Positions 19,817 to 21,088 of a DNA stretch of 24,417 bases are shown in pieces. The notes under the pieces were generated by a model, which saw only the letters and a program-made list of their open reading frames with translations, searched no databases and was not told the DNA's origin. The position numbers and the translations under genes were made by a program. This DNA is from a virus: the IMG/VR virus record IMGVR_UViG_3300021083_000185, positions 1 through 24,417 of that record. One strand, given 5' to 3'. How positions within the stretch are numbered: the first letter of the stretch is position 1; each line of letters opens with the position of its first letter.

Positions 19817-20128
19817 ATGAAGCCAAATTGTTATGAATGTCAATACCGAAGAGATATTCCAGGAAATGCACATTCTCAATGTGATCATCCATCCTTTCAA
19901 GGTGTTAACGCCATTTTGGGGATTTTAGCAACGATACGAGCAACCCATAGGAGTGGGCCTATCGAATCAATGGATAAGGAGATTATCGTGAAAGGTAATC
20001 AACATGGTATTAAGAATGGGTGGTTTATGCACCCATTGAATTTTGATCCGGCGTGGCTTGAAGAATGTAACGGTTTCAAATCTATTGAAAGTATCTCAGT
20101 AAGTCCAGCAATCAGCCAAGTTGAATAA
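19817..20128 (+). CDS. Conserved Cys-rich phage protein
   Basis: This is a 103-residue protein that begins KPNCYECQYRRDIPGNAHSQCDHP, four Cys/His that look like a zinc-binding knuckle (Cys5, Cys8, Cys22, His24). The second half contains GIKNGWFMHPLNFDPAWLEECNGF, a recognisable phage-protein signature (P.NFDP.WL..C.GF). It probably binds one zinc. The function is unknown. It is the last gene before a 277-base region without a recognised gene. Confidence 0.8.
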   Translation: MKPNCYECQYRRDIPGNAHSQCDHPSFQGVNAILGILATIRATHRSGPIESMDKEIIVKGNQHGIKNGWFMHPLNFDPAWLEECNGFKSIESISVSPAISQVE

Positions 20129-20405
20129 GGCCCACTACATGATGACCAAGGTGTATATCGCGGAAGTTATCGGGCATCGTAAATCTTGCAATTAGTCTGG
20201 CAGTTAGTAGAGAAAAAGATAGTTAGAAATTGTAGCAAATTTTCAAACTTAGAATGGGAATAAGTGAGCAGTATTTAGCGAGTATTCAGCATCCTTGGAA
20301 CACGGCAGTGAACCAAATGGCTGGTAACGGTAGCGCACAGGCCTGTGGATACTGCTCACTTATTCCCATTCTAAGCCTTAAACTAATTAATTCAACACAA
20401 GGAAT
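20129..20405 (+). other. Long gap: 27-bp inverted repeat element and short open frames
   Basis: This region has no recognised gene. At 20138-20194 a short frame codes for MMTKVYIAEVIGHRKSCN with no supporting signal. At 20248-20375 lies the inverted-repeat element, listed separately. An ATG at 20254 in the left arm opens a 51-residue frame that runs through the element to TGA 20407-20409, where it overlaps the next start as ATGA. Confidence 0.5.
20248..20375. repeat. 128-bp element with 27-bp perfect inverted repeats
   Basis: The arms at 20248-20274 and 20349-20375 are exact reverse complements over 27 bases. The 74-base centre has two more foldings: CAGC..TTGG (20287-20298) pairs with CCAA..GCTG (20313-20323), and CACAGGCCTGTG (20336-20347) is a perfect 12-base palindrome. 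As RNA this gives a long stem topped by two hairpins. As DNA it resembles a MITE-like or recombination element. The centre is more GC-rich than the genome. There is no T-run after it, so it is not an ordinary terminator. An open frame also runs through it (HPWNTAVNQMAGNGSAQACG). Confidence 0.8.
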
Positions 20406-20699
20406 ATGATACCAATTTATTTATTAGAATCAACTGACATCATTGAACCAACTGATTGGTGTAGGCCTCTTCAATTAATTTCAATGAGTGGCGGAATGAG
20501 TGATGGATATTCTTTTAAATCGTGCTATAGCGGAAAACCTGAAAATAATGTTGAATGGGTAAAGGTGTCAAATATACTTGGCCAACGCTGGTTTGGTGAA
20601 ACTGTCGAAAATTACAATAATGGAGTCGGTGTATCTTATGAATTTGTAAGAGGTAGTATTCCATTATCTCATCAATTAGATATGAGTGATTACAAATGA
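20406..20699 (+). CDS. Hypothetical protein
   Basis: This is a 97-residue protein with AAGGAAT just before the ATG. The N-terminus IPIYLLESTDIIEPTDWCRPLQL is followed by a Gly/Ser-rich stretch (ISMSGGMSDGYSF) and a beta-rich part with GQRWFGETVENYNNGVGV. It ends in an acidic tail that overlaps the next gene by ATGA. The gene lies directly after the inverted-repeat element, which may influence its expression. The function is unknown. Confidence 0.7.
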   Translation: MIPIYLLESTDIIEPTDWCRPLQLISMSGGMSDGYSFKSCYSGKPENNVEWVKVSNILGQRWFGETVENYNNGVGVSYEFVRGSIPLSHQLDMSDYK

Positions 20700-21088
20700 A
20701 GAAACTAGTTGAAATGAAGAGAATTAAAGTTGAAGAAATGTCTATTCACGCATTAAGTTGGCTAGTTGCTGATTTGCTCGATTGGAAACCTAAAATTGAT
20801 AAATATGGCCCATTATTCAGCAAGGGTTATTATGCGACATCGATAAATTGCCATATGTTCGATATAGCAAAATGGGAAATAGGCGGCCCAATTCTTGAAT
20901 GGTTGATTAGTCAAGGAATGCTAGTTGAAGCAACGGATAAAATGTATAAAACCCTTCCTAAATTCAAAGCTACTTTGACTAAATGGGAAACTTCTTCCTT
21001 CGGTGATACGTTACTCATTGCGGCAATGAAATGTTTTGTAGTTTATAAATGTGGCGAATTTGCCGAAATTCCTACTAAATTGGCATAA
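20696..21088 (+). CDS. DUF2591-like phage protein
   Basis: This is a 130-residue protein. RIKVEEMSIHALSWLVADLL, YGPLFSKGYYATSINCHMFDIAKWEIGGPILEW and a C-terminal GDTLLIAAMKCFVVYKCGEFAEIP correspond to the DUF2591 pattern seen in many phages (L...LDW.VA ..., ..W..GGP.IE, G.T.L.AAMR.YV..K.GDE...P). Its function is unknown. The variant WEIGGPILEW is clear. It is coupled to the upstream gene by ATGA. Confidence 0.75.
   Translation: MKKLVEMKRIKVEEMSIHALSWLVADLLDWKPKIDKYGPLFSKGYYATSINCHMFDIAKWEIGGPILEWLISQGMLVEATDKMYKTLPKFKATLTKWETSSFGDTLLIAAMKCFVVYKCGEFAEIPTKLA

Follow-up and report, generated by a model that had tools for sequence, protein, structure and literature searches.

A solitary perfect inverted repeat of 128 nt between two same-strand genes of a phage-like contig, and its possible origin by insertion

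The window analysed here, a linear virus record of 24,417 bases, contains at positions 20248–20375 a perfect inverted repeat of 128 nt, in which 27/27 arm positions pair across a 74-nt spacer (Table 1). The element most probably represents a solitary hairpin belonging to a generally known kind. With a probability of roughly one in three, we read it as an insertion, MITE-like in anatomy and present in one copy, that, if transcribed, would form a hairpin cut by RNase III and thereby separate the flanking messages. The source looks like a large tailed phage; the nearest annotated relatives of the protein encoded at 22677–23858 are found in Pseudomonas jumbo phages such as PA5oct (48% identity).

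The original prediction had described a perfect 27-bp repeat and had considered a chance origin unlikely, and both statements held. Exact inverted repeats within 300 nt never exceeded 16 nt in 200 dinucleotide-shuffled versions of the whole window, the longest in each usually measuring 11–13 nt, and related viral loci (875 kb) contain no arms beyond 14 nt for loops of 20–300 nt. The surrounding gap, which had been called the longest of its region, ranks second in length among those of the window according to the gene map, falling only 2 nt short of the gap at 3482–3760. The comparison with related loci also bears on the idea that one of the arms was reversed artificially, by formation of an inverted chimera or by misrouting in the assembly graph. 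For this record, a virus contig, there is no second source, and strand-displacement amplification is known to yield inverted-type chimeras according to a published account (PMC9484634). However, the arms lie within a coherent spacer with both flanking genes intact, and arms of this length are otherwise absent from the 875 kb of comparable assemblies, so that we regard an assembly or amplification artefact as unlikely.

Table 1 Features of the inverted repeat and its surroundings (window coordinates).
Feature	Position	Strand	Description
Upstream gene	19817..20128	+	103 aa, Cys/His motif; 60% identical to a gene in viral contig L088
Intergenic gap containing the element	20129..20405	+	277 nt, between two same-strand genes
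Left arm	20248..20274	none	27 nt, CTTAGAATGGGAATAAGTGAGCAGTAT
Open frame across the element	20254..20409	+	51 codons; stop overlaps the next start (gene 20406) as ATGA
Core	20275..20348	none	74 nt, 54% GC against 34% GC in the contig
Nested stem	20286..20324	+	TCAGC/TTGG/CAC pairing with GTG/CCAA/GCTGG; within chance for such composition
Palindrome	20336..20347	none	12 nt, CACAGGCCTGTG; adjoins the right arm
Right arm	20349..20375	none	27 nt, exact reverse complement of the left arm
Downstream gene	20406..20699	+	97 aa, conserved in L004 and L005
NinX-like gene	20696..21088	+	PF10765; coupled to 20406–20699 by an ATGA overlap

The core stands out in base composition, as only 0.66% of 74-nt windows in the contig are equally GC-rich and all others lie within genes or a TnpB remnant. 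A forward frame that runs open through the element from 20236 to 20409 looks attractive in so compact a genome, and its ATGA overlap with gene 20406 would suit a reading in which the element is part of a short coding gene of 51 codons. In contrast, the codon score of this frame (−0.16) sits with that of out-of-frame pieces (−0.11 ± 0.07) and not with that of coding sequence (+0.12 ± 0.06), a measure by which alone a short foreign gene is hard to rule out, and we found neither relatives of the frame nor an SD sequence. The non-coding codon usage together with the lack of relatives led us to reject the frame as a gene, and a coding role for the element is hardly credible.

The predicted RNA fold of positions 20241–20382 reaches −62.3 kcal/mol, compared with −33.1 ± 3.8 kcal/mol for shuffled sequences (z = −7.7), and the opposite strand is predicted to fold about equally strongly. 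Taken by itself, the 74-nt core is predicted to be slightly less stable than its shuffles (z = +0.73, with 385 of 500 shuffles equal or better), indicating that the strength of the whole fold comes from the arms. The two internal hairpins that had been pointed out are present as the nested stem and the palindrome, but the structure of the core is within chance. The stem is not a rho-independent terminator, since it continues into CCTTAAAC with no poly-U or T run. A search with the Rfam covariance models matched no family at the gathering score, and a relaxed threshold yielded only snoRNA scores of chance level.

These observations concern the possibility that the element is a selected phage RNA, that is, a hairpin maintained for its RNA structure that serves processing or insulation where two transcription units meet. 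The strength of the whole fold fits this proposal, as do the intergenic position between same-strand genes and the unobstructed start site of gene 20406, whose SD-like ACAAGGA lies outside the hairpin, ~20 nt beyond the end of the stem. However, no homologue with compensatory changes was found, the relatives are devoid of the element, and the chance-level core, the missing poly-U terminator and the Rfam result also count against it. We therefore consider a selected RNA element rather unlikely.

In the insertion reading that we prefer, a 128-bp non-coding element would have entered a large phage, in the spacer that separates two genes on the same strand, either along with an acquired gene cassette (19817–20699) or next to it. 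Co-transcription with its neighbours would generate a 27-bp RNA duplex capped by a 74-nt loop, host RNase III would cut this duplex, and the message of 19817–20128 would thus be parted from that of 20406–21088, while the start site of the downstream gene 20406 would stay free after cleavage. We infer the origin by transposition, the mobility, the co-transcription and the cleavage alike. The reading builds on arms that exceed chance, on a core whose GC content is foreign to the contig, on the non-coding character of the element, on its location in a variable segment and on the strong predicted fold, whose stem ends short of the SD-like sequence of gene 20406. The earlier suggestion of a dsRNA or RNase III site agrees with this in that the long hairpin is real and would therefore be a biochemically sensible substrate, its basis being the predicted fold.

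The suggestion of a MITE-like insertion fits the anatomy and the composition, and the element is a candidate MITE at most. As in prokaryotic MITEs, the element is short (128 bp), non-coding by codon usage and bounded by terminal inverted repeats (27/27), with a composition unlike that of the contig. Within 24 kb, however, a single copy was seen, and neither a convincing target-site duplication nor a parent transposase was detected. Only 2-nt matches, TA included, were seen at 3 of 25 symmetric boundaries, which is approximately the chance level. No parent transposon with matching ends was found in IMG/VR, plasmids, phages or E. coli, and no transposase with matching ends was found either; the window itself showed just one, a TnpB remnant of the IS200/IS605 type. 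The IS200/IS605 group is not known for terminal repeats of such a kind.

The original prediction had also proposed a search for further copies in phage and host, and none emerged from the contig, IMG/VR, phages, plasmids, E. coli or GTDB. The singleton status holds for these 24 kb; blastn of the element against phages, plasmids and E. coli genomes returned no copy, and neither did an exact scan of IMG/VR with a 20-nt arm or paired-arm scans with 11+11 or 10+10 nt, in a collection that, like GTDB as scanned, may omit records very close to that of the window. One IMG/VR match (L120) sits within a glycine-rich coding gene and was rejected as a coincidence. Paired-arm scans of the GTDB species genomes (15+15 and 11+11 nt, with a spacing of 75–110 nt that a full-length parent element would escape) gave only two arm-level matches, L086 and L087, which are other inverted repeats with 11–13 nt of arm in common with the phage element. 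Base composition predicts about 0.2–0.5 such matches, and inverted repeats of such spacing are about threefold more common in phage DNA than base composition predicts, so that the two matches are unremarkable. In a sample of 386 genomes of the cyanobacterial phylum, blastn (E ≤ 0.01) found one 22-nt piece only, again a coincidence.

A local inverted duplication is almost equally likely as the insertion and accounts to a similar degree for the singleton status and the missing target duplication. By a template switch (snap-back), a polymerase may have copied one 27-nt arm in reverse orientation at a distance of 74 nt within a non-coding spacer, or may have made an older imperfect repeat perfect; both variants, which we judge together as a serious though tentative contender, imply no mobility and perhaps no function. 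The perfect arms accord with this origin, as template switching between inverted repeats homogenises their arms according to one published study (PMC8604942). However, such a duplication leaves the GC-rich core unexplained, and the IMG/VR scans found a one-armed ancestor in no relative.

The neighbouring genes provide the genomic context of the preferred insertion. The closest syntenic relative, L006, retains the order 18061, 19213, (20696), 21112, 21422 and 22677 but is without the element and without genes 19817 and 20406, in whose place it has a different small gene. L006 is thus a related genome lacking the element, as had been sought for comparison, although both adjacent genes are missing there too. 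The homologue of gene 19817 in L088 (6001–6315) is flanked by genes that look unrelated to those of the window, a weaker relative of its Cys/His protein occurs in L118 (41%), and the relatives of gene 20406 in L004 and L005 have other surroundings than in the window. The absence of the segment 19817–20699 from L006 and the recurrence of its genes in other contexts indicate that it is variable and was probably acquired, and the 103-aa Cys/His gene itself looks like a transferred accessory gene. Over its first ~90 nt, the gap weakly resembles the sequence that follows the L088 gene (score 30, against 20 ± 3 and a maximum of 32 for shuffles); no hairpin comparable to the element follows that gene, and the spacers of L004, L005, L006, L088 and L118 contain no hairpin with such arms. 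We also note that the NinX-like protein is present in a large AT-rich phage.

The proposed processing step has known counterparts. In T7-type phages, the mRNA carries stable intergenic RNase III hairpins between co-directional genes; the element differs from these in its longer, perfect stem and 74-nt loop and in not being conserved in relatives. Correia elements (CREE) of Neisseria have 26-bp inverted ends and lengths of 104–108 or 153–157 bp, their symmetrical forms are bound and cleaved by RNase III, and the elements also occur in a prophage region (PMC2649163). The phage element resembles them in size class (104–157 bp), in its inverted ends of 26–27 bp, in its intergenic position, in an RNA stem that would suit RNase III and in a TA at a possible boundary, but it is a single copy in a different type of genome with no proven TA duplication, and any likeness would be one of working only. 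Paired-arm pattern scans of the GTDB genomes gave no Neisseria match to the phage arms. In phage satellites, non-coding RNAs lying between inverted repeats have been likened to domesticated MITEs (PMC7567579). In bacterial chromosomes, short inverted-repeat elements act through RNA processing to regulate their neighbours, and a clear case from a large phage would carry such regulation over to phage operons; the present case is one unconfirmed copy. The more far-reaching idea of an undescribed MITE family, moving between large phages as an RNase III-cleaved dsRNA hairpin and rewiring their operons, is a long shot.

Perfect inverted repeats of a size typical for recombination sites might also delimit an invertible 74-bp segment or constitute another type of recombinase site, as had been put forward. 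The size of the repeat does fit, but no recombinase was recognised among the ten window proteins scanned, the core contains no promoter-like match and no homologue of the element was found, making this function very improbable.

A supposed link of the element to the right end of an IS605 element through GCCTGTGGAT turned out to be a chance resemblance, as 4 ten-mers of the element recur elsewhere in the window, fewer than for shuffled elements (8 ± 4). With the hairpin partner also absent, we rejected the element as a homologue of IS200/IS605 ends. The IS605 remnant itself is a TnpB-like frame of 123 aa (2673–3044) in which an N-terminal piece is joined to a C-terminal zinc-finger piece, an arrangement as in an internally deleted copy, and the frame is followed at about 3019–3041 by an end hairpin of the form CCTGTGGA-TCTTTAG-TCCACAGG.

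Two further repeat structures were observed. The Gastranaerophilales genome that contains one of the two GTDB matches (L086 2268–2386, G002) harbours ~20 interspersed elements of ~115 bp with a conserved core of ~55 nt, whose arms are runs of the variant octamers GGGAATAA, GTGAATAA and GTAAATAA. This family resembles the phage element in its length, its inverted ends and 11–12 nt of common arm, but differs in its octamer-run arms, its unrelated core and its copy number. At the two ends of the contig (1–137 and 24268–24417), similar GC-rich tandem repeats of 9, 12 and 21 bp of the CGCCGCCAACTCCGCCTACTC type probably account for the assembly break.
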